Source of the DNA: Acetobacteraceae bacterium
Lineage (GTDB): Bacteria > Pseudomonadota > Alphaproteobacteria > Acetobacterales > Acetobacteraceae
Assembly: GCA_027487675.1 (NCBI GenBank)
Contig: JAIYDD010000288.1
Location: 1-51,617, forward strand
Direction: 5' to 3'
Length of the DNA stretch: 51,617 nt
Part shown: positions 11,426 to 50,750 of the stretch, piece by piece
Position numbering within the stretch: position 1 is the stretch's first letter
Layout of the letters: the number at the start of each line of letters is the position of its first letter
Notes under the pieces: generated by a model
The model's input: the letters and a program-made list of their open reading frames with translations, nothing else
Told to the model about the DNA's origin: nothing
Database searches by the model: none
Position numbers and translations under genes: made by a program

Positions 11426-11435
11426 CGGCAGGCGG

Positions 11436-20896: not shown

Positions 20897-20946
20897 TATA
20901 CATGGACGCCCTCGATCGCCGGGCGGCCGCTCCGCTGCCTTGGCTT

Positions 20947-20978: not shown

Positions 20979-21006
20979 CACATGCCGCGGCGGCCCTTCG
21001 GCCGCT

Positions 21007-21032
21007 CGCCCGGGCTGAAGGACGCCCGGGCG
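21007..21032 (+). promoter_or_regulatory. Hairpin presenting the livH ribosome site in its loop
   Basis: A 9-bp perfect stem (cgcccgggc at 21007-21015 with gcccgggcg at 21024-21032) closes an 8-nt loop containing the Shine-Dalgarno-like gaagga (21017-21022). The stem ends 1 nt before the livH ATG at 21034. A smaller hairpin (20990-20995 with 21000-21005) lies just upstream. Together they should limit or gate livH translation. Confidence 0.55.
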
Positions 21033-21033
21033 C

Positions 21034-21912: not shown

Positions 21913-22853
21913 CGCCGCGCGACCTGCTGCCGATCGCCGGCTTCGCCGCCGCCGCGGCGCTGCTGCCGCTGTTCGTGACGGCCGGCACCTGGCTGAACTT
22001 CATGATCTTCACGCTGATCATCTGCCTCGCCGCGCAGGGCTGGAACATCCTGGGCGGCTTCGGCGGGCAGTACAGCTTCGGCCATGCGGCCTTCTTCGGC
22101 ACGGCAGCCTATGGCACCGCAATCCTGCAGCTGCGCTACGGCGTGAACCCCTATCCGGCCTTCGCGGCCGGCATCGCCGCGGCCGCGGCAGTGGGCTGGA
22201 TCATCGGTGTCCTGGCGTTCCGCTCCGGCCTGCGCGGCAGCTATTTTGCCCTCGTCACGCTCGCCTTCGCCGAGGTGTTCCGGGTCCTGGCCAACTCCGC
22301 GGAGGTCACGGGCGGCGCGGCCGGCCTGCTCATCAAGCTCGATGTGCGACCGGAGAACTTCCAGTTCGAATCGCGCGCCAACTTCTATTGGATCGCATTG
22401 GCGCTCGTCACCGGCGCGCTGGTGCTGACGCGCTGGCTGGAACGCTCGCGGCTCGGCGCGCAGCTCGTCGCGGTGCGTGAGAACGAAAGCGCGGCGCGCG
22501 CGCTCGGCGTGGATGCGCTGTCGGTCAAGCTCTCGGCCATCACGCTGTCGGGCGCCGTCACCGGCGCGGCGGGCGGGCTCTACGCGCAGTACTTCCTGTA
22601 TCTCGACGCCAACATCGCCTACGGCACCTGGATCAGCGTCGAGGCGCTGCTGGCGCCGATCATCGGCGGCGCGGGCACGGTCTTCGGCCCGGTGCTGGGC
22701 GGCATCATCCTGCACAGCCTGGCGGAGTTCACCAAGACGCTGGTCGGCCGCATCCCGGGCGTGGATCTGGTGATCTTCGGCGCGCTGCTGATCCTGGTGG
22801 TCCGCTTCCCGCCGCGCGACATCCCTGGCCTGCTGAAGCGGTGGCGTCGATGA
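21909..22853 (+). CDS. livM: Branched-chain-type ABC permease, LivM family (first liv system)
   Basis: The 314-residue permease starts at GTG 21909 in a GTGA overlap with livH. It has the LivM pattern: GWNILGGFGGQYSFGHAAFFG in the N-terminal part, LRGSYFALVTLAFAEVFRV, and the coupling-loop region ALGVDALSVKLSAITLSGAVTG. About eight to ten membrane helices are expected. A much longer in-frame reading from 21642 lies inside livH and is a shadow. Its stop overlaps the livG ATG by 4 bp. Confidence 0.93.
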   Translation: MTPRDLLPIAGFAAAAALLPLFVTAGTWLNFMIFTLIICLAAQGWNILGGFGGQYSFGHAAFFGTAAYGTAILQLRYGVNPYPAFAAGIAAAAAVGWIIGVLAFRSGLRGSYFALVTLAFAEVFRVLANSAEVTGGAAGLLIKLDVRPENFQFESRANFYWIALALVTGALVLTRWLERSRLGAQLVAVRENESAARALGVDALSVKLSAITLSGAVTGAAGGLYAQYFLYLDANIAYGTWISVEALLAPIIGGAGTVFGPVLGGIILHSLAEFTKTLVGRIPGVDLVIFGALLILVVRFPPRDIPGLLKRWRR

Positions 22854-23605
22854 GCCGCGTGAGCTTCCTGTCCGTCCAGGGCGTATCCAAGCGCTTCGGC
22901 GGGCTGCTCGCGGTGTCCGACGCCAGCTTCGAGGTCGCGGAGGGCAGCATCACCGGCCTGATCGGCCCGAACGGCGCGGGCAAGACGACGCTCTTCGCCA
23001 TCGCCTCGGGCTTCGAGCAGCCGACGACGGGCCGCGTCATTTGGCGCGGCGAGGACATCACCGGCCGCCCGCCGCACCGCCTGGCGCAGGATGGACTGGC
23101 GCGCACCTTCCAGATCGTGCAGCCCTTCGCCGGCCTGAGCGTGCGGGAGAACATCGCCGTCGGCGCCTTCCTGCGCCATCGCCGGCGTGCGGACGCGATC
23201 GCGGTCGCGGAGCGCGTGGCGGAGCGTGTGGGCCTGTCCGCGGAACTCGACAAGCCCGCCGCCGCGCTGACGGTGGCCGGACGCAAGCGCGTGGAGCTGG
23301 CCAAGGCGCTGGCGACGGAGCCGAAGCTGCTGCTGCTGGACGAGGTGCTGGCGGGGCTGAACCCGTCCGAGGTGCGCGACATCGTCCCCGTGGTGCGCGC
23401 CATCCGCGACGGCGGCGTCACCGTGCTGATGATCGAGCACGTCATGCAGGCCGTGATGAACCTCTGCGAGACGGTGCACGTGCTGGCGCAGGGCCGCATC
23501 ATCGCCAGCGGCACGCCGCATTCCGTGGTCGCCGACCCCGCGGTGATCGAGGCCTATCTGGGCCACGGCGCGGCGAAGCGCCTGTCCGGTGCCGCCCATG
23601 CTTGA
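22850..23605 (+). CDS. livG: Branched-chain-type ABC ATPase, LivG family (first liv system)
   Basis: The 251-residue ATPase has Walker A GPNGAGKT (residues 39-46), Walker B LLLLDE (160-165) and the LivG-typical loop VLAGLNPSE. The ABC signature is divergent, TVAGRKR instead of LSGGQ, although its fourth glycine is kept. The ATG at 22850 overlaps the livM stop (ATGA); an in-frame GTG 9 bp upstream is possible but less likely. It works with LivF as a heterodimeric motor. Confidence 0.93.
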   Translation: MSRVSFLSVQGVSKRFGGLLAVSDASFEVAEGSITGLIGPNGAGKTTLFAIASGFEQPTTGRVIWRGEDITGRPPHRLAQDGLARTFQIVQPFAGLSVRENIAVGAFLRHRRRADAIAVAERVAERVGLSAELDKPAAALTVAGRKRVELAKALATEPKLLLLDEVLAGLNPSEVRDIVPVVRAIRDGGVTVLMIEHVMQAVMNLCETVHVLAQGRIIASGTPHSVVADPAVIEAYLGHGAAKRLSGAAHA

Positions 23606-24299
23606 GGTGGAAGACCTGCACGCCGGCTACGGCCTGACGCGCGTGCTGGAAGGCGTTTCGCTGAGCGTCGGCGCCGGCGAGATCGTCGCCGTGCTCGGTT
23701 CGAACGGGGCCGGCAAGACGACGCTCAACATGGCGATCAGCGGCCTGGTCAAGCCGCGCGCCGGCCGTGTGCGCTTCGATGGCCGCGACATCACCGGCCT
23801 GTCGCCGCCCGAGGTGATGGCGCAGGGGCTGATCCAGGTGCCGGAAGGGCGCAAGATCTTCCCGAACCTGTCGGTGCGCGAGAATCTCGAACTCGGCTCG
23901 TACCGCCGCGCGAAGCCCAACCGCGCGCGGAACCTGGAACGCGTCTTCGCCACCTTTCCGCGGTTGCGCGAACGCGTGGGCCAGGCAGCCGGCACGCTGT
24001 CGGGCGGCGAGCAGCAGATGCTGGCAATCGGCCGCGGCATGATGGCGGAGCCGCGGCTGCTGATCCTGGACGAGCCCTCCCTCGGCCTGTCGCCGCTGCT
24101 TGTCGAGGAGATGTTCGCGCTGATCCGCCGGCTGCACGCCGACGGGCTCGCGGTCATGCTGGTCGAGCAGAACGTGGCGCAGAGCCTCGAGATCGCGTCG
24201 CGCGCCCATGTGCTGGAGAACGGGCGCTTCGCGCTGTCCGGCCCCGCCGCGCAGGTGGCGGAGGACCCGGAGCTCAAGCGCGCCTATCTGGGGCTGTGA
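23598..24299 (+). CDS. livF: Branched-chain-type ABC ATPase, LivF family (first liv system)
   Basis: The 233-residue ATPase has Walker A GSNGAGKT (residues 34-41), the signature LSGGEQQMLAIGRGMM, Walker B LLILDEPSLGLSP and VEQNVAQSLEIA. The ATG at 23598 overlaps the livG stop by 8 bp; an upstream in-frame GTG at 23589 is an alternative. It ends the importer, and the catabolic genes start 13 bp later. Confidence 0.93.
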   Translation: MLEVEDLHAGYGLTRVLEGVSLSVGAGEIVAVLGSNGAGKTTLNMAISGLVKPRAGRVRFDGRDITGLSPPEVMAQGLIQVPEGRKIFPNLSVRENLELGSYRRAKPNRARNLERVFATFPRLRERVGQAAGTLSGGEQQMLAIGRGMMAEPRLLILDEPSLGLSPLLVEEMFALIRRLHADGLAVMLVEQNVAQSLEIASRAHVLENGRFALSGPAAQVAEDPELKRAYLGL

Positions 24300-24312
24300 G
24301 GGGAGGAAGGCG

Positions 24313-25704
24313 ATGGCCATCGTGACGCCAGGTGTCGTGCCGGCCTCCGCGCTTCTCGCGCGGCCGCCGCATCCCTGGCTGGCGGCATGGGCGGGCTTCG
24401 CGGCGCGCAGCCGCTTCGCGGACCTGCCGGCCGAGGTTGTGGCGCGGTCGCGCCTGGTGCTGCTCGACTGCATCGGCGCCATCGCCGCCGGCGCGGCGGA
24501 GCCCGAGATGCAGGCGCTGGCCGCGCGTATGGTGGAGCGCGAGGGCCATGGCGCGGCGCCCGTCATCGGCCTTCCGCACGCGGCGCGGCCCGGCACCGCG
24601 GCCTTCCTGAACGGCACGTCCGGCACGATGCTGGAGTTGGACGAGGGCAACCAGTATTGCCGCGGCCATCCGGCGATCCATGTCGTGCCCGCGCTGCTGG
24701 CCGCACCCCGCGGCGACGGCGCGGCGCTGCTGCTGGCGCTGGTGCTGGGTTACGAACTGGGCGCGCGCGTCGGCATCGCGTCGAAGCTCGTCGTCACCAT
24801 GCATCCGCACGGCACCTGGGGCACCCTCGGGGCCGCGATGGGCGTCGCCAAGCTGCACGGCGCGACCGCCGAGGAGATGCGCGCGGTGATCAACATCGCC
24901 AGCACGCTCGGCCTCGCGACGTCGCGCCGGACGATGCTGGAAGGCGGCACCGTGCGCAACGCCTATGCGGGTGTGGCCAACATGCTCGGCCTGACGGCCT
25001 GGGACCTGGCGCGCGCCGGCTTCGAGGGCGAGCGCGACGGCGTCGCCACCATCTTCGGCAGCGTCGTCGCCACCGACTTCCAGCCTGCCGAGATGGTGGC
25101 CGATCTCGGCACGCGGTGGGAGGTCGCGCGCAACTACTTCAAGCGCCACGCCGCCTGCCGCTACACGCATGGCGCGCTGGATGCGCTGGCCGCGATCCTC
25201 GGGCGCACCGGGCCGCTCGGCCTGGACCAGGTGCGCGCGGTGGAGGTGGACACCTATGTCTGGGCCGCGCAGCTCGACAGCTCCGCCGCGCCCAACATGC
25301 TGGCCGCGAAGTTCAGCCTGCCCTTCGCCGTCGCGACCTTCCTGGCGCATGGCGCGGCGACCGTGCCGGCCTTCCGCGCGCCGGCGCGCGCCGATGCCGC
25401 GATCCAGTCGCTGGCCGCGCGCGTGGTGGTGAACGAGGATCCGTCGCTGACCGCGATGCTGCCCGGCCTGCGCCCGGCGCGCGTGCGCGTGACGCTCGCC
25501 GATGGCAGCACGCACATCGCCGAGGTCACGACCAACCGCGGCGACACCGAGGACCCCTACACCGAGGCCGAGATCCGCGCCAAGTTCCGCGAACTGGCCG
25601 GGCCCGTCTTCGGCGACGACCGCGCCCGCGCGATCGAGGAGGCGACGCTCCGCCTCGGCCCGCACGACGAAGCCGCGGGCTTCGTGGAGCTGCTGGCGCG
25701 ATGA
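24313..25704 (+). CDS. MmgE/PrpD-family protein
   Basis: The 463-residue cytoplasmic protein is of the 2-methylcitrate dehydratase / iminodisuccinate epimerase / aconitate decarboxylase superfamily. Recognisable parts are RSRLVLLDCIGAIAAG near the N-terminus, NGTSGTMLELDEG, HVVPALLAAP, and KRHAACRYTHGALDAL in the middle. The ATG follows gggaggaagg, the best ribosome site in the operon, and lies 13 bp after livF. Members lyse, isomerise or decarboxylate small polycarboxylates. Its presence beside hydantoinase genes suggests processing of a carboxylated ring-opening product, which is inference. Confidence 0.9.
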   Translation: MAIVTPGVVPASALLARPPHPWLAAWAGFAARSRFADLPAEVVARSRLVLLDCIGAIAAGAAEPEMQALAARMVEREGHGAAPVIGLPHAARPGTAAFLNGTSGTMLELDEGNQYCRGHPAIHVVPALLAAPRGDGAALLLALVLGYELGARVGIASKLVVTMHPHGTWGTLGAAMGVAKLHGATAEEMRAVINIASTLGLATSRRTMLEGGTVRNAYAGVANMLGLTAWDLARAGFEGERDGVATIFGSVVATDFQPAEMVADLGTRWEVARNYFKRHAACRYTHGALDALAAILGRTGPLGLDQVRAVEVDTYVWAAQLDSSAAPNMLAAKFSLPFAVATFLAHGAATVPAFRAPARADAAIQSLAARVVVNEDPSLTAMLPGLRPARVRVTLADGSTHIAEVTTNRGDTEDPYTEAEIRAKFRELAGPVFGDDRARAIEEATLRLGPHDEAAGFVELLAR

Positions 25705-31426: not shown

Positions 31427-33748
31427 ATGGACCAGTTCGGCATCGGCCAGCCCGTGCGGCGGAAGGAGGATGCGCGCTTCCTGACCGGGCGCGGCCGCTA
31501 CACCGACGACATCGACCTTCCCGGCCAGCTGCATCTGTGCGTCCTGCGCTCCCCGCACGCGCATGCGCGCATCGTCTCGCTCGATGTCTCGGCGGCGCGC
31601 GCGGCGCCGGGTGTCGCGCTGGTGCTGACCGGGGCGGATGTGGCGGCAGACGGGCTCGGCGACCTGCCGCTGATGGTCGACATCCCCGCCAAGCCCGGCA
31701 CGCCGCCGCTCTTCATCCCGCCGCGGCCGCTGCTGCAGCGCGACGCCGTGCGCTATGTCGGCGACCCGGTCGTGCTGGTGGTGGCCGAGACGCGCGCCCA
31801 GGCGCAGGACGCGCTGGAGCTTGTCGCCATCGACTACGAGCCGCTGCCGGCCGTCACCGACACCGGCCGCGCGCTCGACGAAGGTGCAGCGCTGGTCTGG
31901 CCGGACCGCGGCAGCAATCTCTGCGTGCTGTGGACCAATGGCCGCGCGGCGGAGACGGATGCCGCCTTCGCGCGCGCGCACCGCGCGGTCTCGATCGAGC
32001 TCGTGCAGAACCGCGTCGTCGGCAACCCGATGGAGCCGCGCGTGGCCATCGGCGACTGGGACGCGGCGGCGGGGCGCTACGAGCTGGTCTCCCCGACGCA
32101 GGGCGTCTTCCGCGTGCGCGATGCGCTCGCGCAGTTCGTGTTCAAGGTGCCGAAGCAGGCGATCCACGTCGTCAGCCCCGATGTCGGCGGCGGCTTCGGC
32201 CTGCGCGGCAAGATCTTCCCCGAATCCGCCATGGTGCTCTGGGCGGCGAAGCGGCTCGGCCGGCCGGTGAAGTGGCGCGCGGACCGGACGGAGACGATCC
32301 TGTCGGATCCGCATGGCCGCGACCACGTCACGCGCGCGGAGATGGCCTTCGACGCGCAGGGCAAGGCGCTCGGCCTGCGCGTGCGCACCATCGCGGCCGT
32401 CGGCGCCTATCTGCTCGATTTCGGTCCGCGCATCCCGACGGTCGCTGGCGCGCGCATCGCCGGCACCGTCTACGACATCCAGGCGGTCAACATGGAGGTC
32501 AGCTGCGCCTTCACGAACACCGTGCCGACGGACGCGTATCGCGGCGCCGGAAGGCCGGAGATCGCCTATACGATCGAGCGGCTGCTCGATCTCGGCGCGG
32601 CGGAACTCGGCCTTGGGCGCGACGAGATCCGGCGGCGCAACTTCATCCGCCCCGACCAGATCCCCTACACCAACTGCGTCGGCAACGTGATCGACAGCGG
32701 CGACTTCGGCGGCGCGCAGGCCATGGCGCTGCGCCTGGCCGACTGGGACGGCTTCGCGGCGCGGCGCGCCGAAGCCGCCGCGCGCGGCAGGCTGCGCGGC
32801 ATCGGCACCGGCTACTTCATCGAGGCCTCGGGCGGCCAGCCGCAGGAATGGGCGCGCGTCGCGATCACGCCGGAAGGCCGCGCCCGGCTGCATGTCGGCA
32901 CCTTCAGCCATGGCCAGGGGCACGAGACGGCGTTCGCGCAGATCGTGCACGCCACGCTCGGCATTCCTTTCGAGCAGGTGGAGCTGGTGCAGGGCGACAG
33001 CGACCTGGTCGAGCAGGGCTTCGGCACCGGTGGCAGCCGGTCCTCGCAGATGGGCGGCGTCGCCACCTTGCGCGCTTCGGATGCCGTTCTCGCCAAGGCG
33101 AAGCGCATCGCGGCCCATCTGCTTGAAGCGGACGCCGCCGACATCGAGCGCGACGGCGCGCGCTTCCGTGTCGCCGGCACCGATCTCGGCGTGACATGGG
33201 CGGAGATCGCCACCGCCGCATCCGACCCTGCGCGCCTGCCGGCCAGGGAGGCGTCGGGGCTCGACGAGAACGTCCTCTACAAGCGCAGCAGCGAATGCAA
33301 CTTCCCGAATGGCTGCCACGTGGCGGAGGTGGAGATCGACCCGGACACCGGCCATCTGCAGGTCGTGCGCTACGCCGCGGTCGACGATGTCGGCAACGTG
33401 CTCAATCCGCTGCTGGTGCATGGCCAATCCCATGGCGGCATCGCCCAGGGCCTCGGCCAGGCGGTGCTGGAGAATGCCGTCTATGACAGCGACAGCGGCC
33501 AGCTGCTCGCCGCCAGCTTCCAGGACTATGCGATGCCGCGCGCGACCGACCTGCCGGACCTGGCGCTCGATTTCCACATCGTGCCGACGCCGGTGAACGA
33601 GCTCGGCGTGAAGGGCGCGGGGGAGGGCGGGGCGTGCGGCGCGCCGCCCGCCATCGTCAGCGCCGCCTGCGATGCGCTCGGCGTCGCGCATCTCGACATG
33701 CCGCTGACGCCGGAGCGGATCTGGCGCGCGCTGGCGGCGCGCCGCTAG
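31427..33748 (+). CDS. Molybdenum hydroxylase large subunit (xanthine dehydrogenase family), orphan
   Basis: The 773-residue protein has the full large-subunit layout: an N-terminal hammerhead domain (IGQPVRRKEDARFLTGRGRYTDDI), the Mo-pterin motif DVGGGFGLRGK near residue 253, AYRGAGRPE with Y371-R372, and the catalytic Glu-733 in GVKGAGEGG. It lacks the VAYRCSFR loop of true CO dehydrogenase, so a heterocycle or aldehyde hydroxylase is more likely. No FAD or [2Fe-2S] subunit gene is nearby, which leaves its electron acceptor unclear. It ends in a 4-bp CTAG overlap with the convergent FAS1 gene. Confidence 0.92.
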   Translation: MDQFGIGQPVRRKEDARFLTGRGRYTDDIDLPGQLHLCVLRSPHAHARIVSLDVSAARAAPGVALVLTGADVAADGLGDLPLMVDIPAKPGTPPLFIPPRPLLQRDAVRYVGDPVVLVVAETRAQAQDALELVAIDYEPLPAVTDTGRALDEGAALVWPDRGSNLCVLWTNGRAAETDAAFARAHRAVSIELVQNRVVGNPMEPRVAIGDWDAAAGRYELVSPTQGVFRVRDALAQFVFKVPKQAIHVVSPDVGGGFGLRGKIFPESAMVLWAAKRLGRPVKWRADRTETILSDPHGRDHVTRAEMAFDAQGKALGLRVRTIAAVGAYLLDFGPRIPTVAGARIAGTVYDIQAVNMEVSCAFTNTVPTDAYRGAGRPEIAYTIERLLDLGAAELGLGRDEIRRRNFIRPDQIPYTNCVGNVIDSGDFGGAQAMALRLADWDGFAARRAEAAARGRLRGIGTGYFIEASGGQPQEWARVAITPEGRARLHVGTFSHGQGHETAFAQIVHATLGIPFEQVELVQGDSDLVEQGFGTGGSRSSQMGGVATLRASDAVLAKAKRIAAHLLEADAADIERDGARFRVAGTDLGVTWAEIATAASDPARLPAREASGLDENVLYKRSSECNFPNGCHVAEVEIDPDTGHLQVVRYAAVDDVGNVLNPLLVHGQSHGGIAQGLGQAVLENAVYDSDSGQLLAASFQDYAMPRATDLPDLALDFHIVPTPVNELGVKGAGEGGACGAPPAIVSAACDALGVAHLDMPLTPERIWRALAARR

Positions 33749-40935: not shown

Positions 40936-41757
40936 TCAGCGAAGCCAGCGGCGCACGGCGTCCAGCGTCGGCGCGTCGAACAGGTCGTGCAGCACCGAGA
41001 AATGCGTGGTGCCCGGCACCAGCACCGCCTCCGCCTCCTCGCCCCGCGCGCGCAGCGCCTCGGCGAAGCGCAGCGTCTGGCCGACGAAGCCCGGTGTCTC
41101 CCGGGCGCCGGCGACCAGCCGCGCGGGGAAGCGTGCGCCGTCATGCAGCGCGTGCAGCGGGCTCGCGGAACGCGCCTGGGCCGCCGTCAGCGCGACCGAG
41201 GCGCCGACGCTGGTCCGCAGCAGCGGCGCCAGGTCATAGACGCCGCTGACGCCAAGAAGGCCGCGCAACCCGAGCGGCGAGCGCGGATCGAGCATCGCCA
41301 TGGCCGCCAGCTGCGCCCCCGCCGAATGCCCCGACAGCACGACGCGGCCGGCATCGCAGCCGAGCCGCGCCTGCGCCAGCCAGGCCAGCGCCGCATGCGC
41401 CTGCGCGACGATCTGCGGCACGCTGACCGCCGGCGCCAGATCATAGCCCGGCAGCGCGACCGAGATGCCGCGCGCCAGCAGCGGGCCGGCGAGGAAGCCG
41501 AAGATCTCCTTCTCCAGCGCGCGCCAGTAGCCGCCATGGAAGAACACCAGCAGCGGCGTGCCCTCGCCGGCGCCGAAATAATCCAGCCGCATGCGTGGCC
41601 CATCGCCATAGCGCAGGTCGAGCGTCGCGGCGTGCTGCGCGCGCAGCGGATCGCTGGCCGCGCGCATGCGGGCATATTCGGCGTCGCGCTCCGGATGCCG
41701 CGCGCGCAGCGCGTAGTCGGCTTCCAGCGCGGGATCGATGGTGGGCGCGTCACACAC
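40936..41757 (-). CDS. Alpha/beta hydrolase, arylformamidase-like (HGGYW, GHSAG)
   Basis: The 273-residue protein has an oxyanion motif HGGYW (residues 74-78) and nucleophile S145 in SGHSAGA. The HGGYW form is characteristic of kynurenine formamidase relatives in the hormone-sensitive-lipase group. The catalytic His is likely in PGTTHFSVLHD near the C-terminus. The start is GTG 41757, overlapping the livF stop by 8 bp; a reading to 41877 would lie inside livF. It is the last gene of the GntR-liv-diiron operon and probably hydrolyses a formamide, amide or ester related to the imported compound (inference). Confidence 0.87.
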   Translation of the reverse strand: MCDAPTIDPALEADYALRARHPERDAEYARMRAASDPLRAQHAATLDLRYGDGPRMRLDYFGAGEGTPLLVFFHGGYWRALEKEIFGFLAGPLLARGISVALPGYDLAPAVSVPQIVAQAHAALAWLAQARLGCDAGRVVLSGHSAGAQLAAMAMLDPRSPLGLRGLLGVSGVYDLAPLLRTSVGASVALTAAQARSASPLHALHDGARFPARLVAGARETPGFVGQTLRFAEALRARGEEAEAVLVPGTTHFSVLHDLFDAPTLDAVRRWLR

Positions 41758-42451
41758 CCAGATAGGCCTCCCGCACCGCTTCGTCGGCGGCGAGCTCCGC
41801 GCTCGTGCCGCGCACCGCGACCGTGCCCTCCGCCAGCACCGCGCCCTGCTGCGCGACACGCAGCGCGAGCCGCGCATTCTGCTCGGCCAGCAGGATGGTC
41901 AGGCCCTCCGCGTTCAGCGCGGCGATGGTGCGGAAGATGTCGCGCACGACCATCGGCGCCAGGCCCATGCTGGGCTCATCGAGCAGCAGGATGCGCGGCC
42001 CGCCCATCAGCGCGCGCCCGATCGCGAGCATCTGCTGCTCCCCGCCCGACAGCGTGCCGGCTTCCTGCGACAGGCGTTCGGCAAGGCGCGGGAACAGCGC
42101 CAGCACATGCTCGCGCGCGCGGCGCGCGGCGGCGGGATCGGCGCGGTAGGCGCCGATGGCGAGGTTTTCGGCGACCGTCAGGGGGGCGAAGACGCGCCGC
42201 CCTTCCGGCACCATGGCCAGCCCCGCTTCCAGCCGCGCTTCCGGCGGCAGGTCGGTGATGTCGCGCCCTTCGACAAGCACGCGGCCCGCGCGCACGCGCA
42301 GAAGGCCGGAGAGCGCGCGCATCGTGGTGGTCTTGCCCGCCCCGTTGGCCCCGAGCAGGCAGACGCAGCCGCCGCGCGGCACCGCGAGGTCCACGCCGCG
42401 CAGCACCGTCGCGCTGCCGTAGCCGGCGGTCAGCCCCCGCACCTCAAGCAT
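41750..42451 (-). CDS. livF: Branched-chain-type ABC ATPase, LivF family (second liv system)
   Basis: The 233-residue ATPase has Walker A GANGAGKT, the signature LSGGEQQMLAIGRALMGG, Walker B LLLDEPSMGLAP and AEQNARLAL. Its ATG at 42451 overlaps the livG stop by 8 bp, and its stop overlaps the hydrolase GTG by 8 bp. It is similar in length and layout to the first LivF at 23598, but the two systems differ clearly in sequence, so this is not a recent duplication. Confidence 0.93.
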   Translation of the reverse strand: MLEVRGLTAGYGSATVLRGVDLAVPRGGCVCLLGANGAGKTTTMRALSGLLRVRAGRVLVEGRDITDLPPEARLEAGLAMVPEGRRVFAPLTVAENLAIGAYRADPAAARRAREHVLALFPRLAERLSQEAGTLSGGEQQMLAIGRALMGGPRILLLDEPSMGLAPMVVRDIFRTIAALNAEGLTILLAEQNARLALRVAQQGAVLAEGTVAVRGTSAELAADEAVREAYLGV

Positions 42452-43208
42452 CGTCGTCGCGGCCCAGATAGGCTTCGATCACGGCAGGGTCGCGGCTGAC
42501 CTGGTCCGGCGTGCCGGCCGCGATCTGCCGCCCGCCCGACATCACCAGGATATGCTGGGCGATCGACATCACCAGGCGCATGTTGTGCTCCACCAGCAGC
42601 ACCGTCGTGCCGTCGCGCGCGATGCCGCGGATCAGGGACGCCATGCGCCCGGCCTCGGCATGCGGCAGTCCGGCGGCGGGCTCGTCCAGCAGCAGCAGGC
42701 GCGGCGCGGAGGCGAGCGCGCGGGCGAGTTCCAGCAGCTTGCCCTCGCCATAGGCCAGCCCGCCCGCGGGGTCGTCGGCGCGCGCCGCGAGCCCGACGCG
42801 ATCGAGCAGCGCCAGCACCTGCCGCCGTTCCTCCGCCGCGCGGCGCGTCGCACCGCCCAGCAGGTCGCGCAGCACGCCGCCCGGCCGGTGCGCGTCGAGG
42901 CCGAGCAGCACGTTCTCCGCCACCGACAGGTCCGGCACGATGCGCAGGTTCTGGAAGGTGCGTGCCAGGCCGAGCTTCACGCGCCCATGCATCGGCACGC
43001 GGGCGATGTCGGCGCCGTCCAGCCGCACCTCGCCGGCGCTCGGCGCGACGGCGCCGGCGATGATGTTGAACAGCGTCGTCTTGCCCGCGCCGTTCGGCCC
43101 GATGACGGCGGCGAGCTGCCCCGGCGGGACGGAGAGCGCGATGTCCGCCACTGCCTGCACGCCGCCGAACCGCTTGCAGACGCCGCGCAGCTCGAGCAGC
43201 GCCGTCAT
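42444..43208 (-). CDS. livG: Branched-chain-type ABC ATPase, LivG family (second liv system)
   Basis: The 254-residue ATPase has Walker A GPNGAGKT, the LivG-type signature LAYGEGKLLELARAL in place of LSGGQ, Walker B LLLLDEPAAGLPHAE and VEHNMRLVMSIA. The ATG at 43208 overlaps the livM stop by 4 bp. Long upstream in-frame readings are shadows of livM. Confidence 0.93.
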   Translation of the reverse strand: MTALLELRGVCKRFGGVQAVADIALSVPPGQLAAVIGPNGAGKTTLFNIIAGAVAPSAGEVRLDGADIARVPMHGRVKLGLARTFQNLRIVPDLSVAENVLLGLDAHRPGGVLRDLLGGATRRAAEERRQVLALLDRVGLAARADDPAGGLAYGEGKLLELARALASAPRLLLLDEPAAGLPHAEAGRMASLIRGIARDGTTVLLVEHNMRLVMSIAQHILVMSGGRQIAAGTPDQVSRDPAVIEAYLGRDDDA

Positions 43209-44158
43209 GCGCGCGCCCGCCGCAGCCGCCCGCGCAGCGCCGCACCCAGCGCCGCCAGCCCGCCCGGATAGGCCAGCAGCACCAGCACCAGCGCGCCGCC
43301 GAAGATCAGCATCTCGAAATCGTGGAAGCGGCCCAGCACTTCCGGCGTCATGGTCAGCACCAGCGCGCCCGGCAGCGGCCCCCAGAACCGCCCCCAGCCG
43401 CCGATCGCGACCGCGGTCAGCAGCAGCACGGAGCGCAGGAAGCCGAAGGTCTCGGGCGAGGCGAACTGGTTGACGTGCACATAGACCCAGCCCCCCGCGC
43501 CGGCCATCGCCGCGGCCAGGACGAAGATCGCGATCTTCACCCGCGCCGTGTCCACGCCGAGCCCGCCCGCCGCCAGTTCGGAAAAGGTGATCGCCCGCAT
43601 CGTCCGCCCCGTGCGCGACGCCAGCAGCCGCAGCGCGATCAGCATGCACAGCCCCGCATAGCACCATGCCACCAGGTACTGCCCCAGCGGCATGTCCACC
43701 GGATGCCCGAAGTCGCGCACGAAGCCCGGCACGCCGAGCAGCCCGTTCGGACCGCCGGTCAGCGACACCAGCTCGTTGAACATCACCGTCATGATCGCGC
43801 TGAACCCAAGCGTCGCCATCGCCAGGTAGTGCCCGTGCAGCCTGAGCGCCGGGATGCCGATGATGACGGCGCCGAGCGAGGCCAGCGCAACCGCCGCCGG
43901 CAGCCCCGCCATCGGGTCCCACCCGTAGCGCGCCGCGAGCACGCCCGACGCATAGGCGCCGAGCCCGAAGAAGGTCGCGTGGCACAGCGAGACCTGCCCG
44001 CAATAGCCCGCCACCAGGTTCAGCCCGACCACCAGCCCGACATTCACCAGGAACCCCACGCCGAGCAGCGTCACGTAGTCGTTCGGCGACAGGAAGGGCC
44101 AGGCGAGCAGCGCGACGAAGACGAGCCCGAGCCAGGCCGGATGCGGCAGGCCGCTCAT
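43205..44158 (-). CDS. livM: Branched-chain-type ABC permease, LivM family (second liv system)
   Basis: The 317-residue permease carries LNLVAGYCGQVSLCHATFFGLGAY (residues about 47-70), LRLHGHYLAMATLGFSAIM and the coupling segment GGLGVDTARVKIAIFVLAAAMAG. These are LivM family features. Both ends overlap neighbours by 4 bp (livH upstream, livG downstream), indicating strict cotranslation. Confidence 0.93.
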   Translation of the reverse strand: MSGLPHPAWLGLVFVALLAWPFLSPNDYVTLLGVGFLVNVGLVVGLNLVAGYCGQVSLCHATFFGLGAYASGVLAARYGWDPMAGLPAAVALASLGAVIIGIPALRLHGHYLAMATLGFSAIMTVMFNELVSLTGGPNGLLGVPGFVRDFGHPVDMPLGQYLVAWCYAGLCMLIALRLLASRTGRTMRAITFSELAAGGLGVDTARVKIAIFVLAAAMAGAGGWVYVHVNQFASPETFGFLRSVLLLTAVAIGGWGRFWGPLPGALVLTMTPEVLGRFHDFEMLIFGGALVLVLLAYPGGLAALGAALRGRLRRARA

Positions 44159-45042
44159 ACCCGCTCCGCCTTGCGCTTGCCGAACAGGCCGGAGGGCCGC
44201 AGGAACAGCACCGCGAGCAGCAGCAGGAACGCCACCGCCTCCTTGAAGCGCGACGAAATGGCGTAGCCCGCCAGCCCTTCCAGCGTGCCGAGCAGCAGGC
44301 CGCCCGCCACCGCCCCCAGCGGATGCCCCATGCCGCCCAGCATCGCGGCCGAGAAGCCCTTGAAGCCCAGCATCGTGCCCTGGTTGTAGTCGATCAGCGT
44401 GAGCGGCGTGATGACGAGGCCCGCCACCGCGCCCGCCGCCGCCGCCAGCCCGAAGGACAGCATCACCATCCGCTGCACCGGCACGCCCACCAGCGCCGCC
44501 GCATCCCGATCCGCCGCCGCCGCGCGCAGCGCGAGCCCGGTGCGGCTGCGCGCGAAGAAGACCTGCAGCGCGAAGATGAAGCCTGCGCAGGCCGCCAGCA
44601 CGATCAGCGACTGCGCCGGGATCGCAGCACCCGCGATGCGCAGCACCGCATCGCCGAGCGGCCCCGGATAGCCCGTCGGGTTCTTCCCCAGGGTCACCAT
44701 GATGGCGCCCTTGGTGAAGATGGCGATGCCGATGCTGACCATGGTGATCAGCAGCGGCGAGGCGTCGCGCAGCCGCTGCACCGCCAGAAGATAGGATGCG
44801 ACGCCGACGGCGACGACGAGCAGCAGCGATGCCGCGCCCGCCAGCCCCGTCGCGAAGCCCGCCATGTGCCCCGCCGCCGTCGCCATGCCGGCCAGCATCA
44901 CCCATTCGCCCTGCGCGAAATTCACCGCGCCGGTGGCGCGATAGATCAGGCTGAAGCCCAGGCCCACCAGCCCGTAGATCGCCCCCGTGCCGAGCCCGCC
45001 GAACAGCACCTGCAACAGCGCCGCCGCATCCATGGGCGGCAT
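44155..45042 (-). CDS. livH: Branched-chain-type ABC permease, LivH family (second liv system)
   Basis: The 295-residue permease has GGLGTGAIYGLVGLGFSLIYRATGAVNFAQGEWVML-type helices at the N-terminus (residues about 15-50) and AAMLGGMGHPLGAVAGGLLLG in the coupling loop. The ATG at 45042 overlaps by one base the stop of the upstream diiron paralog, so the enzyme genes and transporter genes are one translational chain. A second in-frame ATG lies 9 bp downstream. Confidence 0.93.
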   Translation of the reverse strand: MPPMDAAALLQVLFGGLGTGAIYGLVGLGFSLIYRATGAVNFAQGEWVMLAGMATAAGHMAGFATGLAGAASLLLVVAVGVASYLLAVQRLRDASPLLITMVSIGIAIFTKGAIMVTLGKNPTGYPGPLGDAVLRIAGAAIPAQSLIVLAACAGFIFALQVFFARSRTGLALRAAAADRDAAALVGVPVQRMVMLSFGLAAAAGAVAGLVITPLTLIDYNQGTMLGFKGFSAAMLGGMGHPLGAVAGGLLLGTLEGLAGYAISSRFKEAVAFLLLLAVLFLRPSGLFGKRKAERV

Positions 45043-45968
45043 CAGCCGCGGCCCAGCAAGGCGTGGCTGAATTCCGGCAGCGCCACGCCGAGCGTGCCGA
45101 GGAACACCCGCGCATCGTGCAGCCAGCGTCGCAGCGCCGCTGCCTCCTGCTCCGGCGTCGCGGCGCCGAGGCCGGCCTCCGCCGTCAGCGCATCCGCCGC
45201 CGCCTCCCGCGCCGCGGCGTTCGGGGCGAGCCAGGGCATGTGGTAGCCGGCGAACTCCACCTCCGCCATGTGCTGCGCGATGGCGGCGGCGATGCGCGCG
45301 CGGTCTTCCGCTGTCCAGCCGGGCGCGCGGTGCGCCAGGTAGATCTGGCCGAAGAAGGAATGACGCGTCTTCGCCGCGATCATGCGGTCCAGCACCGCGC
45401 CGATCGCGAGGTTCTCCGTGCCCGCGCGCTGCGCCTCGGCCAGGGCGCGTTCCAGCCCGTCCTCGAAGAAGCAATGCACGGCGACCAGCGCGTCGAGCGC
45501 GTTGCGCGCATCGAAGGCGGCGCGGTGCAGGCCGCGGTTGAACAGCGCGGCGTAGGCATCGGTGCCGGGCCGCGCCGGCGGCTTCGCGCCCTGCGGTGCC
45601 AGGGCACGCGCCAGCATGTCGCAGGCCTCGACCTGCCAGGCTTCCTCGGTGTTGCGCACGGTGAGGAACATGCGCGTCTCCGCCTCGCGCCCCTTCTCCA
45701 TGCAGAAGCGGACGACGAAGGCCGGCGTCTCGGTCAGCGCCGTCGCCTCCAACCAGGCGCGGCGCCGCCAGCACGCCGCCGCGGCCTCCCGCAGCTTCGG
45801 GTCCAGCGTCTCCGCCCCCAGCCGGTCCCACGGCACCGCCCGCCGTGGATCCCAGCGCGCGCGCTTGCTCTCCTCGTAGAGCCGCCGCAGCGCCGGCACC
45901 TCCTCCGACAGCTTCAGCGGGAAGCGCTGCTCGACGAGGATCGGGACCGGATCGTGAAGCGCGGCCAT
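45042..45968 (-). CDS. Ferritin-like diiron-family protein with substituted metal ligands (paralog B)
   Basis: The 308-residue protein aligns end to end with the neighbouring paralog A: WDPxxxVPWxxL, RRAWxE, the ExxH region and a long shared C-terminus (LPEFSHALLG versus LPAFTHPKLG). Of the six ligand positions, E74, E109, E169 and H203 are kept. The His after E109 is Gln-112 (EAWQ) and the last Glu is Lys-200 (KTRH). A normal diiron centre is therefore unlikely, and it may be a structural or regulatory partner of paralog A, as in catalytic/non-catalytic subunit pairs of known diiron oxygenases. The gene lies 6 bp after paralog A and overlaps livH by one base. Confidence 0.82.
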   Translation of the reverse strand: MAALHDPVPILVEQRFPLKLSEEVPALRRLYEESKRARWDPRRAVPWDRLGAETLDPKLREAAAACWRRRAWLEATALTETPAFVVRFCMEKGREAETRMFLTVRNTEEAWQVEACDMLARALAPQGAKPPARPGTDAYAALFNRGLHRAAFDARNALDALVAVHCFFEDGLERALAEAQRAGTENLAIGAVLDRMIAAKTRHSFFGQIYLAHRAPGWTAEDRARIAAAIAQHMAEVEFAGYHMPWLAPNAAAREAAADALTAEAGLGAATPEQEAAALRRWLHDARVFLGTLGVALPEFSHALLGRG

Positions 45969-45974
45969 GCGTTG

Positions 45975-46928
45975 TCAGACCGTGCCGAGCTTCGGATGGG
46001 TGAAGGCCGGCAGCTCGATCCCGAAGGCGTCCATGCGCGCGCGGATGCGCTTCAGGCTGTCCACGAAGACCGGCTTCTCCGCCTCCTCGACCGTCGCGCC
46101 GAGCCCCGCTTCCCAGGTGATGCGGTCCGCCTCCACCTCCGCCGCGCTGGCGGGGGAGGGCGGGGCAAGCCAGGCAGAGTGGTAGCCGTTCAGCTCCACC
46201 TTCTCGATCATCACGATCACCGCGTCGCGCACCTGCGCGCGCTGCGCCGGCGTCATCCGCGCGATCTCGTGTTCCAGAAAGTACCAGCCGAAGGCGCAGT
46301 GCCGCACCTCGTCGCGCATGATGTTGCGGCAGATCGCCTTGGCGACGGGATCGGTCGTGATCTCGACCAGGTGGCGGAAGACGTCGAAGGCGATCTCCTC
46401 CGCCGTGCAGACCAGCGCGGCGATGATCGCCTCCAGCGGGACGGCGGTGTCGAGCGCCGCGCGCCGCACGCCATGCGTGGCCACGCTGCCCTGGTAGGCG
46501 GCCTCGACGGGCTTCTCCAGGTAGCCGCCCAGCTTCTCCGCCATCAGGTGGCAGACCTCCGCGTGGCGCGTCTCCTCCTGGCTGCGGATCGTGAAGAACA
46601 GCTGCATGTCGGAGGGCCGGCGTTCCACGCCGAAGCGGATCTGCAGCGTCGGGCTTTCGCTGATCGCGCCGTATTCGCTCCAGGCGCGGCGCGACCAGTA
46701 TTGCCGCGCGGAGAAGAGCTGCGCCTCGGTGTATCTCGCGGTGTCCAGCAGCTCCCACGGCACGTCGGTCTGCGGGTCCCACTGGTTGCGCGTCGCGGTG
46801 TGGAACAGCTCGCGGATGCGCGGGATCTCCGCGTCGAAATCGGCGGGGAAGCGGTCCTCGGCCTGGCCCAGCAGGCCCTGCACCATCTCCGTCGCCTGCG
46901 CCGGCGACATGTCGCGGGTGAGCAGCAT
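45975..46928 (-). CDS. Ferritin-like diiron oxygenase-type protein (paralog A, complete ligand set)
   Basis: The 317-residue, mostly helical protein has the arrangement of a carboxylate-bridged diiron enzyme: E85 (RRAWSEYG), E119-T-R-H122 (SQEETRHAE), E177/E178 (CTAEEIAF) and E207-V-R-H210 (RDEVRH). This is two ExxH pairs plus two further Glu, as in ribonucleotide-reductase-R2-like and AurF-like oxygenases. The exact subfamily cannot be fixed from the sequence alone. It lies 15 bp after the livK gene and 6 bp before paralog B. Oxidation of the compound imported by the surrounding liv genes is the natural inference. No reductase gene is in the operon. Confidence 0.85.
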   Translation of the reverse strand: MLLTRDMSPAQATEMVQGLLGQAEDRFPADFDAEIPRIRELFHTATRNQWDPQTDVPWELLDTARYTEAQLFSARQYWSRRAWSEYGAISESPTLQIRFGVERRPSDMQLFFTIRSQEETRHAEVCHLMAEKLGGYLEKPVEAAYQGSVATHGVRRAALDTAVPLEAIIAALVCTAEEIAFDVFRHLVEITTDPVAKAICRNIMRDEVRHCAFGWYFLEHEIARMTPAQRAQVRDAVIVMIEKVELNGYHSAWLAPPSPASAAEVEADRITWEAGLGATVEEAEKPVFVDSLKRIRARMDAFGIELPAFTHPKLGTV

Positions 46929-46943
46929 GGCGGGGGTCCTTCC

Positions 46944-48101
46944 TTACGTCACGAGGTTGAAGCGGCCGGCGCGCCAGTCGAGCATCACGACGTCGTCCTT
47001 CGACAGCCCGCTGTGCCGCTCGGCCGAGAAGCTGAACACGCCGCTGACGCCGCGATGGCCGCGGATGCCCTCGATCGCGTCACGCACCGCGTTGCGGTCC
47101 GCGCCGCCGCGCTGCAACCCGATCGAGGCCAGCATCATCGCGTCATAGGTCTGGCCGACGAACTGGTTCGGCGCGCGGCGGTACTTTGCCGTGAAGCGCT
47201 CCGTCAGGCCGAGGATCGCGTTGCGCGTCGGGTCCGTCTCCGGCAGTTGGTCGCCGATCGGGAACTTCACCGACAGCAGCAGCAGCCCCTGCGCTGCCTC
47301 GCCCGCCAGCTCCATGAAGCGCTGCGCGACGAAGCCGTAGCTGTGCACCAGCTGCCGGTCGCCGAGGCCAAGCTGCCGCGCCTGGCGCAGGAACACCACG
47401 CCGACCGGCGCCGTCGTCCAGCACAGCACCACCTGGCTGTCGCCGCCGCGGATGCGCGTCAGCTGCGCGGTCAGGTCCGTGTCGGCGGGATTGAAGCTTT
47501 CATAGGCCACCTGCAGGTTCCGCCGTGCGGCGACGAGGCGCATCTGCTCCACCGCGCTCTGCCCGAAGCCGGAACTGTCGGCCAGCATCGCGACGCGCGT
47601 GCGGCTGTTGGCGTGGCACCAATCGGCCAGGCGTTCGAGCACCTGGTCGTCGTCCACCGTGGACTTGAAGACGAAGCGGCGTTCCGCGACGGGCGTCACG
47701 ATGCTCATCGCGCCCTCGGTCGAGATGAAGGGCACGCGCGCCTGCTCGGCCATCGGCGCCATGGCCAGCGCGATGCCGCTCATGCTGCCGCCGCCGACCA
47801 GCACGTCCACGCGGTCCTGCGACAGCAGCCGGCGCGTGGCGTTCAGCGCGCGCTGCGTCTGGCTTTCGCCGTCGTAGAAGAACCACTCGATGCGCCGTCC
47901 GCCGATGCCGCCGGCGGCGTTGATCTCCTCCACCGCCAGCTCGACGCCGACGCGCATGTCCTCGCCGAGGAAGGCGGCGGGGCCGGTGACGGACAGGATC
48001 GTGCCGACCTTGAAGGTCTGTGCCTGCGCGAAGCTTGGGCGGATGGCGGGCACGGCGAGCGCCGTCGCCAGCAGGGCGCGGCGGGGAAGGGCGGTTCTCA
48101 T
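46944..48101 (-). CDS. Branched-chain-type ABC transporter substrate-binding protein (second liv system)
   Basis: The 385-residue periplasmic protein has an arginine-containing signal (LPRRALLATALAVPA, cleavage near SFAQA) and family blocks FKVGTILSVTGPAAFLGEDM and VEEINAAGGIGGRRIE. Its ATG overlaps the GntR regulator stop by 4 bp, and the diiron gene follows after 15 bp. The ligand is unknown. Its location as first structural gene after the regulator suggests that the regulator responds to the same compound or a product. Confidence 0.92.
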   Translation of the reverse strand: MRTALPRRALLATALAVPAIRPSFAQAQTFKVGTILSVTGPAAFLGEDMRVGVELAVEEINAAGGIGGRRIEWFFYDGESQTQRALNATRRLLSQDRVDVLVGGGSMSGIALAMAPMAEQARVPFISTEGAMSIVTPVAERRFVFKSTVDDDQVLERLADWCHANSRTRVAMLADSSGFGQSAVEQMRLVAARRNLQVAYESFNPADTDLTAQLTRIRGGDSQVVLCWTTAPVGVVFLRQARQLGLGDRQLVHSYGFVAQRFMELAGEAAQGLLLLSVKFPIGDQLPETDPTRNAILGLTERFTAKYRRAPNQFVGQTYDAMMLASIGLQRGGADRNAVRDAIEGIRGHRGVSGVFSFSAERHSGLSKDDVVMLDWRAGRFNLVT

Positions 48102-48898
48102 CGGGCGGGTTTCCTCTCCGGCGGCGGGGTTGGGGCGATCGGGATGTCCACGACGGTGCGCGACTGGTCGGCGCGGTAGAAGGAATGGCCCGCGAGCACG
48201 CGCCGCCCGTCGGCATCGCGGTAGAGCAGGCGGCGCAGCAGGATCGGGTCGCCGGCCGCAACCTCCAGCCGCGCGGCGATGCGGCCATCGGCGCCCAGCG
48301 CCTCCATTTCCATCGTCGCGCGCACGACCGTCGTCGCCTGGCGCAGCGCATCCAGCAGCGATCCTGTCGAGGCGACCTTGCGCGGCACATGCGCCGCGAA
48401 TTCCGCCGGCATCACGCGCAGATCCAGCGACACGGGAATGGTCCCCGCCAGCCGCAGCCGCTCCACGACGAGGCAGGCCGTGCCGGGTTCCAGCCCGAGC
48501 GCCGCGCATTCCGCTTCCGGCGCCGGGCGGATGCCGTGGCGCAGCAGGCGGAAGGCGATGGCGCGGCCGTGATGCGCCCACTGGTTGATGAAATCCATCG
48601 CCGGCGTGAAGCGCTCCTCCACCTTGCGGAAGGCGACGAAGGTGCCGGCGCCGCGGCTGCGTCGCAGATGGCCCTTCGCCACCAGCTCGTCCAAGGCGTG
48701 CCGCACCGTCATGCGGCTGATGCCGAAATGCTCGGACAGCTCGCGTTCCGTCGGGAAGCGCAGCTCGGGCGACGGCCAGGCGGCGATCGCGCCCATCAGC
48801 AGCCTTCGCAGCTGCGCGTGCAGCGGCAGCGGGGAGCTTCGCTCCAGCGCCGTGGCGCCGAGCCGTCGCATCGCGTCCGGCAGGTCCGTTTGGTCCAT
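48098..48898 (-). CDS. GntR-family (HutC/UTRA) transcriptional regulator
   Basis: The 266-residue regulator has a GntR winged helix at about residues 24-90, with RFPTERELSEHFGISRMTVR and HLRRSRGAGTFV. It is followed by a UTRA ligand-binding domain (about 105-250; PVSLDLRVMPAEFA, YRADQSRTVVD near the end). The start is ATG 48898; a TTG at 48910 would add four residues. It is the first gene of the operon down to 40936 and overlaps livK, so it most likely represses its own operon and is released by a small ligand. Confidence 0.9.
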   Translation of the reverse strand: MDQTDLPDAMRRLGATALERSSPLPLHAQLRRLLMGAIAAWPSPELRFPTERELSEHFGISRMTVRHALDELVAKGHLRRSRGAGTFVAFRKVEERFTPAMDFINQWAHHGRAIAFRLLRHGIRPAPEAECAALGLEPGTACLVVERLRLAGTIPVSLDLRVMPAEFAAHVPRKVASTGSLLDALRQATTVVRATMEMEALGADGRIAARLEVAAGDPILLRRLLYRDADGRRVLAGHSFYRADQSRTVVDIPIAPTPPPERKPAR

Positions 48899-48899
48899 G

Positions 48900-48909
48900 T
48901 GGCTAGACA
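48900..48909. promoter_or_regulatory. Possible GntR/HutC operator
   Basis: tggctagaca (minus strand tgtctagcca) is an 8-of-10 palindrome immediately upstream of the regulator gene. It resembles the GT-N-TA-N-AC pattern of GntR-family sites with one mismatch. Its position over the regulator's own start would suit autorepression. It is a single weak match and could be chance. Confidence 0.22.
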
Positions 48910-49033
48910 ATCAGATGTCGTGCCGCCCGCGCAAGCGCTTTCCGCGCCCGCCCGCCGCCTGTTGTTGCGGCACCGCCTGCCCGGGGAAGCGGCGGGCTGG
49001 CGCCGGCGGGCGAAGTGGGGCGCCGCTGTCGGG

Positions 49034-49082: not shown

Positions 49083-50750
49083 ATGGCCGCGACGCGGACG
49101 ATGGAGCAGGACCTGGTCTTCACCGGCGGCCGCATCTTCCGCGGACTGGCCGGGGGCTTCGCCGAGGCGCTGGCGCTGCGCGACGGCCGCGTGCTGGCCG
49201 TCGGCGACGCGGAGGCGGTGGTGGCCGCCGCGCCCGGCGCCCGCCGTTTCGCGCTCGACGGCCGCGTCGCCATCCCCGCCTTCAACGAGGCGCATATGCA
49301 CCTGCTGCCGCACGGGCTTGCGCTGGCCGGCGTCAACCTGCGCGCGGAGGAGGTCCGCACCCTGGACGAGGCGCTGTCGCGCCTGCGGCGCGCCGCCGCG
49401 GCGACGCCGAAGGGCGGCTGGGTGCTGGGCCGCGGCTACGACCACGCCGAGCTCGACATCGGCCGCCATCCGACGGTCGAGGAGCTGGACGCCGCCGTGC
49501 CCGACCACCCGGTCTTCATCACGCGCACCTGCGGCCATATGGGCGTCGCCAACAGCGCCGCGATGCGCGTCGCCGGCGTCGGCCACAACACGCCCGATCC
49601 CGAAGGCGGCATCATCGAGCGCAAGGCCGGCCGCCTCACCGGCCTGTTCCAGGAACGCGCGATGCGCCTGGTGCGTGATGCGATCGCGCCGCCCGAGGCG
49701 GCGGCGCTGGTCGCGGCGATCGGCCGCGCCTGCGACGACCTGGCGCGATTCGGCTTCGCCAGCGCCACCGACATGAATGTCGGCATGACCGCGGGCCTCG
49801 CCGAGATCGAGGCGTATCGCGCCGCGCGCCGCGACGGCCAGCTGTCCCTGCGCCTGTGGAACGTGCTCGCCGGCAACCCGGAAGGCATCGCGCAGGCAGC
49901 GTGGGACGCCGGGCTGCGGCCGTCGCGCGAAGGCGCGCGGATCGTCTATCCGGGCGACGACAGGCTGCGCTGGGGCGCCGTGAAGGTCTTCGCCGATGGT
50001 TCGGCCGGCGGCCTGACCGCGGCCTTCTTCGACCCCTACCAGGCAAGCGCCGGCGGCGGCACCGGCGTCTTCACCTTCCCGGACGCGACGATCCACGCGC
50101 TGCTGAAGCTGTACCACGAACAAGGCTGGCAGCTCGACATCCACGCCATCGGCGATGCCGCGATCGAGCAGGTGCTGTCGGGCATGGAGGCCGCCGACGC
50201 GCCCGCGCATCCCTTCGCCGGCCGCCGCCACCGCATCGAGCATTGCGGCTTCGTGACCCCGGACCAGCGGCGTCGTATGAAGGCGCGCGGAATCCTGCCG
50301 GTGCCGCAGCCGGTCTTCATGTACGAATTCGGCGACCTCTACATCCGCAATCTCGGCCGCGCGCGGTCCGAGCACGCGTACCCGATGCGCACCTGGCTTG
50401 ACGAAGGCCACCACCCGGCGGCGTCGTCCGATTGCCCTGTCAGCACGGTGGATCCCTTCGCGAACCTCTTCACCATGCTGACGCGCAAGACCAACCGCGG
50501 CACGGTGATGGGCGCGGAGGAATCGCTGACGGCTGAACAGGCCGTGCACTGCCAGACCTGGTGCGGCGCCTACACGCAGTTCGCCGAAGGCATGCGCGGC
50601 ACGCTGGAAGCCGGTATGCTCGCCGATCTCGCCGTGCTGTCCCGCGACATCTTCGCCGCCGAGCCGGAGCAGATCCTGCGCGACACGCGCTGCGACCTGA
50701 CGCTGCGCGATGGCGTCCCGATCTTCGACCGCCACGGGGAGCTCGCCTGA
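49083..50750 (+). CDS. YtcJ-type metal-dependent amidohydrolase
   Basis: The 555-residue protein belongs to the amidohydrolase group of YtcJ and N-substituted formamide deformylase. The first metal site is H71-M-H73 (NEAHMHLLPHG), followed later by the Lys in AVKVFADGSAGG, His in DIHAIGDAAIEQ, His in HRIEHCGF and Asp in SSDCPVST. The ATG follows agggagaacggg. A dipeptide-type ABC permease begins 1 bp after its stop, so the enzyme probably acts on a compound brought in by that transporter. The substrate (formamide, amide or cyclic amide) is not determined. Confidence 0.9.
   Translation: MAATRTMEQDLVFTGGRIFRGLAGGFAEALALRDGRVLAVGDAEAVVAAAPGARRFALDGRVAIPAFNEAHMHLLPHGLALAGVNLRAEEVRTLDEALSRLRRAAAATPKGGWVLGRGYDHAELDIGRHPTVEELDAAVPDHPVFITRTCGHMGVANSAAMRVAGVGHNTPDPEGGIIERKAGRLTGLFQERAMRLVRDAIAPPEAAALVAAIGRACDDLARFGFASATDMNVGMTAGLAEIEAYRAARRDGQLSLRLWNVLAGNPEGIAQAAWDAGLRPSREGARIVYPGDDRLRWGAVKVFADGSAGGLTAAFFDPYQASAGGGTGVFTFPDATIHALLKLYHEQGWQLDIHAIGDAAIEQVLSGMEAADAPAHPFAGRRHRIEHCGFVTPDQRRRMKARGILPVPQPVFMYEFGDLYIRNLGRARSEHAYPMRTWLDEGHHPAASSDCPVSTVDPFANLFTMLTRKTNRGTVMGAEESLTAEQAVHCQTWCGAYTQFAEGMRGTLEAGMLADLAVLSRDIFAAEPEQILRDTRCDLTLRDGVPIFDRHGELA

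Follow-up and report, generated by a model that had tools for sequence, protein, structure and literature searches.

We identified a conserved import-oxidation-hydrolysis operon with an unusual enzyme core in a 51,617-nucleotide stretch of DNA from an Acetobacteraceae bacterium (assembly GCA_027487675.1, contig JAIYDD010000288.1), which was analysed at full length and is called the window here. The operon is real and consists of nine minus-strand genes in the order GntR regulator, substrate-binding protein (SBP), A, B, livH, livM, livG, livF and alpha/beta hydrolase, A and B being paralogs with the fold of R2-like diiron proteins. These genes were delimited by mechanical calling of open reading frames (ORFs) in GC-rich DNA, and adjoining genes overlap by 1 to 8 base pairs (bp; 4, 1, 4, 4, 8 and 8 bp) or are separated by gaps of 6 to 15 bp (15 and 6 bp). 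An earlier description made by a model from the letters alone (the original prediction) had proposed this tightly packed operon and had stated that its author knew of no described pathway of such composition; every gene was indeed present, and a search of the open-licence literature likewise found no description of such an operon.

We consider it fairly probable that these genes form a catabolic import-and-oxidise operon, in which A and B make up a heterodimeric oxygenase, amide hydrolysis follows, and the substrate, as the weakest part of this view, may be a nitrogen-containing aromatic or heteroaromatic acid. The enzyme core of this recurring operon has no family name in Pfam or NCBIfam, since A lies under the cut-offs and B is unmatched, and the conserved companion genes give a testable substrate logic. 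In addition, the A/B pattern represents a further pair of catalytic and degenerate diiron proteins, and is useful for asking why such partners persist.

The A-B pair

Relatives of the operon were collected by scanning 84,980 species genomes with three ortholog seeds, which yielded 50 loci; the window and one plasmid brought the set to 52. In the alignment of A (A3, without L045, L056, L058 and the partial L088), the ligands Glu85, Glu119, His122, Glu177, Glu207 and His210 are invariant in 51 of 51 core rows, and eight distant relatives keep all of them except Glu85, which is Glu in five and Asp in three. The catalytic pattern E, ExxH, E/D, ExxH is present as in PaaA, for which the available text of PMC4498308 gives the diiron residues Glu42, Glu72, His75, Asp126, Glu155 and His158. 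Each protein was modelled by itself, with confidence; the model of A has the R2 fold (predicted local distance difference test score, pLDDT, 89.6), and that of B is R2-like (pLDDT 92.6); both resemble R2lox and R2 among the best 50 structure matches. Solved structures searched by sequence contained no convincing relative of A or B, no NCBIfam model matched either protein of the window, and a Pfam scan of B reached no family. The Pfam families AurF and DUF455 match A with scores that stay under their curated cut-offs, and we would class A as a branch of the R2-like diiron superfamily that has no name yet.

B is a paralog of A (34% identical; profile-profile E 6.8e-70) and was found in 48 of the 52 loci. 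Those without an assigned B are L077, L082 and L088, which are cut by contig ends, and L086, where the adjoining protein is roughly as distant from A as from B. The last ligand Glu is replaced by Lys in 43, Tyr in three and Arg in one of the 48 aligned B rows, the remaining row having a gap, so that none of the 47 lettered rows has Glu (alignment A4, without the broken-up B of L076 and with the doubtful B of L086). The position of Glu177 in A is Asp in 43 of the 48 rows, and the first His is kept in 30. In the window, B reads E74, E109, Q112, D170, K200 and H203 at the ligand positions, with Gln instead of the first ligand His. These residues make it unlikely that B holds a normal diiron centre. 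Across 27 full loci, A was more conserved than B, with median identities of 0.68 and 0.50, respectively.

Because A keeps six ligands in every core row while B has lost the last Glu in every lettered row, A and B are probably, by analogy with PaaA and PaaC, one heterodimeric oxygenase with a catalytic A and a degenerate B rather than two diiron enzymes. The original prediction had pictured two tandem diiron proteins, a description that does not fit B, which lacks the full ligand set. Two separately active diiron oxygenases working in sequence would agree with the shared fold of the two models and with the 23 of 48 B rows that read EEHDKH at the six positions (five ligand-like residues), yet this arrangement is very unlikely given the universal loss of the last Glu and the Gln that replaces the first His in the window.

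As in the A-B pair, PaaA and PaaC are two subunits of one fold, one having a six-residue diiron set and the other being described as structural in the part of PMC4498308 that deals with them. A-B likewise has an adjoining paralog with lost ligands. It differs from PaaA/PaaC in its coupling to an ATP-binding cassette (ABC) importer, the PaaA model matches only three of 58 A members, weakly, and the PaaB- and PaaE-like genes of phenylacetyl-CoA epoxidase are absent from the nine genes of the operon.

The most frequent Pfam match of A is AurF, found in 55 of the 58 A members with an E-value of at most 0.001, and the ligand spacing is close to that of the corresponding residues of DnfA and AzoC, as far as the accessible text of PMC9478400 and PMC8840469 reports them. 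A could thus be read as an N-oxygenase of the AurF/CmlI type that converts an amine to a hydroxylamine or nitro compound. We regard this as unlikely, since AurF-type enzymes are described in the same text as having seven ligands, of which the third His (DnfA His209, AzoC His225) lies four residues before the last ligand Glu, whereas that position (203) in A is Ile in 40 and Val in 11 of 51 rows, and His in none. The A of the window also failed to reach the AurF family (PF11583), scoring 22.8 bits against a cut-off of 29.6.

The nearest solved folds of A are R2lox and the R2 subunit of ribonucleotide reductase, with template-modelling scores of about 0.5-0.64 by query length for R2lox among the best 50 matches and 13-17% identity to R2lox or R2, and one R2lox NCBIfam model weakly matches 18 of the 58 A members. 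The comparison with R2lox, which is marked by a Tyr-Val crosslink, was made at the level of the fold. These similarities would suit a detoxifying or signalling protein, either an oxidase of the R2lox kind or a radical protein, instead of a catabolic oxygenase. Such a role is quite unlikely: the gene context differs, an importer, hydrolases and RidA are companions that fit a catabolic system, and the tyrosine of R2, which we take to lie four residues after the first ligand His, is replaced by Cys in 44, Ser in six and Ala in one of the 51 rows.

Conservation and distribution of the operon

The genes for SBP, A, B and livHMGF form a single same-strand run in 34 of the 52 loci, a count that is biased upward by the scan, as all three seeds were liv-type; the counted loci include near-identical Achromobacter operons (L054, L056-L058) and two contigs of one assembly (L082, L083). 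GntR heads the run in 32 of the 34, the exceptions being L068 and L070, the latter of which begins at the contig start. A creatininase-family gene lies between B and livH in L053 and L089. The recurrence of this order makes the operon more than a chance arrangement. Across the 27 full loci, the nine genes have correlated distances (Spearman 0.38-0.86), uncontrolled values to which shared host ancestry contributes. Four loci are cut by contig ends, of which L063 and L088 are consistent with the run and L077 and L082 are uninformative.

Fourteen loci have no adjacent liv set. These comprise four of the form A-(A)-B-hydrolase, two A-B-amidase, three actinobacterial A-B-creatininase and five with the order B-A. 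L055 and L062 carry two tandem A copies, one B and a hydrolase in a run devoid of liv genes, and liv-type genes occur elsewhere in the locus in four of the five B-A loci (L079, L080, L083 and L087). None of the 12 loci of 46-57% identity (L076-L087, two of them cut off) has the SBP-A-B-liv run, and the A-B pair therefore also occurs without an adjacent importer. The proposal that uptake and oxidation genes form one unit was borne out among close relatives, and in this liv-seeded sample the pair was not usually found away from liv genes. The joint unit thus belongs to the closer relatives, and the choice of scan seeds favoured it. In the actinobacterial locus L086 (11858-16069), genes for a creatininase-family protein, a zinc alcohol dehydrogenase and TenA come after the pair, as does a gene that, judged by eye, resembles aldehyde dehydrogenase.

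Close relatives of A are rare near the home taxon. Eight of 200 family genomes had a match to A at E 1e-3, the only near copy being in the own genome and the next best 26% identical, and three same-genus genomes among those listed had no match. Of 385 class genomes, 12 matched at E 1e-10, with a single close match in G263 (67%; this and L053 seem to be one record, which was counted once, as L053). Three plasmid records match A, one closely (Paraburkholderia, 60%). Judged by their titles, the 50 scanned loci are mostly from alpha- and betaproteobacteria, with four actinobacterial assemblies; the gene set recurs in bacteria of soil and water. In viral contigs, 151 stretches fit a pattern and none encodes a relative of A.

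Hydrolases and RidA

A hydrolase follows livF, directly or after RidA, in all 33 uncut liv-type loci (all but L070). It is kynurenine-formamidase-like in 29, an amidase in three and another alpha/beta hydrolase in one; Pfam was run on examples, and the rest were assigned by similarity to those. In nine liv-less loci, the gene next after A-B encodes the hydrolase (four), an amidase (two) or a creatininase-family protein (three), so that, with the liv-type loci, 42 of the 47 uncut loci have a downstream hydrolase belonging to one of three unrelated families. Because three unrelated families occupy the same position, amide-type hydrolysis is suggested to be what is conserved, although ester hydrolysis is also possible. 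RidA is found in 22 of the 33 liv-type loci. Taken together, the hydrolases and RidA suggest an amide or formamide product and then an enamine or imine, which strengthens the original idea that a nitrogen compound is oxidised before amide-type hydrolysis.

The hydrolase of the window had been called arylformamidase-like. Its relationship to kynurenine formamidase stands (4e11, E 1.3e-23), and the motifs HGG-Y/F-W and GHSAG and a late His, which we take to be those of kynurenine formamidase-like hydrolases (HGGXW and the Ser/His motif), are kept in 33 of 33 homologs, the window having HGGYW, GHSAG and a C-terminal His. Two other solved structures, 9n8r ("Lipase 1") and 2pbl (a putative esterase), match better.

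Importer, substrate and electron donor

An SBP, two permeases and two ATPases are found together in the operon and constitute a liv-type ABC importer; the top NCBIfam match of the livF product is LivF, below the cut-off of that model. Operon-borne SBP orthologs are 54-76% identical to the SBP of the window, compared with 37, 35 and 29% for the next best proteins of its own genome and 23% for the SBP of L087. Since the SBP tree leaves the placement of the 37% paralog (L092) beside the operon set open, and long branches make the outsiders unsure, the grouping of the operon SBPs is based on identity.

Among solved structures, 3sg0, 4gnr and 4dqd are closest to the SBP, and we take 3sg0 and 4dqd to bind aromatic keto acids, ligands for which a literature search yielded nothing. 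The liv genes might instead import ordinary branched-chain amino acids, with A-B as an unrelated passenger; liv-type families are common, and the own genome has other liv-like sets. This is highly improbable, however, as the gene order is kept in 34 of 52 loci and 3sg0 is a better match to the SBP than the Leu/Ile/Val-binding protein 1z15 (107 versus 54 bits).

Genes for molybdenum (Mo) hydroxylases occur in seven of the other 51 loci (L040, L049, L078, L079, L080, L083 and L087) and in the window, where a large-subunit gene lies at 31427-33748 on the plus strand; a 45% identical gene is located directly upstream of GntR in L040. From the presumed ligands of the SBP relatives, RidA, the amidases and the Mo-hydroxylase genes, our favoured guess at the substrate, made with low confidence, is a nitrogen-containing aromatic or heteroaromatic acid. 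An idea involving homarine, checked against the literature, gave no result.

Flavoprotein genes adjoin the pair in two B-A loci only, L083 (Pyr_redox_2) and L078 (Pyr_redox_2 with Fe-S domains), the other loci having been checked through shared ORF clusters.

Proposed pathway

The GntR/UTRA regulator would sense the compound or its product and control the operon, and the dedicated liv-type importer, whose families are recognised, would take the compound in. A and B would then act as one R2-fold oxygenase complex, in which A carries the diiron site and activates O2, and B, with its degenerate site, may serve in assembly or dock the substrate or a reductase, a role comparable to that of PaaC in the PaaA/PaaC pair. 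The position of the alpha/beta hydrolase suggests that oxidation yields a compound that carries, or turns into, an amide or formamide, which this enzyme would cleave. In many relatives RidA would then hydrolyse an enamine or imine, a step for which this host could use one of the 17 Rid-family genes found elsewhere in its genome. Three of these 17 adjoin another SBP and liv set on contig C120 (about 8797-12644), where they lie in a row beside a related SBP and liv-like genes; this set may be a further system for importing an amine or N-heterocycle. In the Rut and Nic catabolic pathways, an oxygenase step is likewise followed by an alpha/beta hydrolase, a Rid protein or an amidase, although these pathways use flavin or mononuclear iron oxygenases, unlike A-B.

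Several observations weigh against this pathway. The nine genes include no reductase or ferredoxin recognised by Pfam, and none was recognised among the ORF clusters common to at least three loci, not every one of which was annotated. No hydrolase directly adjoins the pair in the five B-A loci, and RidA is not beside the operon of the window. The amide product is deduced from neighbouring genes, which would also accommodate an ester. With five ligand-like residues in 23 of its 48 rows, B may bind metal in part. The weakest step is the choice of substrate class, and the aromatic leaning of the SBP depends on the ligands that we presume for its relatives.

A broader view, which is possible but rather doubtful, is that A-B represents a diiron oxygenase class of its own, in which a catalytic subunit and a degenerate, lysine-bearing one form a heterodimer of R2 fold, mostly without an adjoining reductase gene; the class would be new. 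It would open a nitrogen-containing ring or cleave a C-N bond by oxygen insertion, giving an amide or formamide and an enamine, and import, oxygenation, and amide and imine hydrolysis would be one patchily spread module.

Regulation, operon parts and neighbouring genes

The regulator matches the HutC and PhnF models below their cut-offs. A weak candidate operator precedes it (Table 1), whose best 12-mer scores 10 of 12, a value equalled by 1 of 200 random stretches of the window. Of 36 loci tested, 18 have a site like TTGTCTAGACAA, scoring at least 9 of 12, upstream of GntR; the test is partly circular, and so a lead only, as the motif was chosen from the same upstream regions. L071, whose GntR is truncated at the contig start, was excluded. 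The other 18 regions score 7 or 8 of 12, a level that at least 12% of random draws also reach. The window copy of TTGTCTAGNCA is the sole exact occurrence in its genome, and the reversed control pattern also had one hit.

Table 1. Parts of the operon in the window, in order of transcription
Feature	Position	Strand	Basis	Junction with preceding gene
Candidate operator TTGTCTAGCCA	48900..48910	-	Partial match to palindrome TTGTCTAGACAA; weak	
GntR-family regulator with UTRA ligand domain, HutC/PhnF-like	48098..48898	-	Pfam GntR and UTRA above cut-off	
Periplasmic SBP, liv type	46944..48101	-	Pfam Peripla_BP_6	4-bp overlap
A, putative catalytic diiron subunit	45975..46928	-	Six ligands and R2-fold model	15-bp gap
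B, paralog of A with degenerate metal site	45042..45968	-	Last Glu replaced	6-bp gap
livH-type permease	44155..45042	-	Pfam BPD_transp_2	1-bp overlap
livM-type permease	43205..44158	-	Pfam BPD_transp_2	4-bp overlap
livG-type ATPase	42444..43208	-	Pfam ABC_tran and BCA_ABC_TP_C	4-bp overlap
livF-type ATPase	41750..42451	-	Pfam ABC_tran	8-bp overlap
Alpha/beta hydrolase, kynurenine-formamidase-like	40936..41757, start GTG	-	Pfam Abhydrolase_3	8-bp overlap

Divergent from the operon, an Amidohydrolase_3 gene lies at 49083-50750 on the plus strand; its nearest solved relatives are uncharacterised metal-dependent hydrolases, and none of the other 51 loci matches it at E 1e-15. A different gene of about 430 amino acids (C6) is divergent from GntR in 17 of the 52 loci (for example L057, 6413-7702) and is not beside the operon of the window. 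One scanned member of C6 matched nothing in Pfam or NCBIfam, and a five-row profile found no convincing match in the PDB. The plus strand of the window also carries a second liv-type transporter set (19643-24299), which is followed by an MmgE/PrpD gene (24208-25704), and a gene of the GH3 family (119-1621), a family that acts in plant hormone conjugation.

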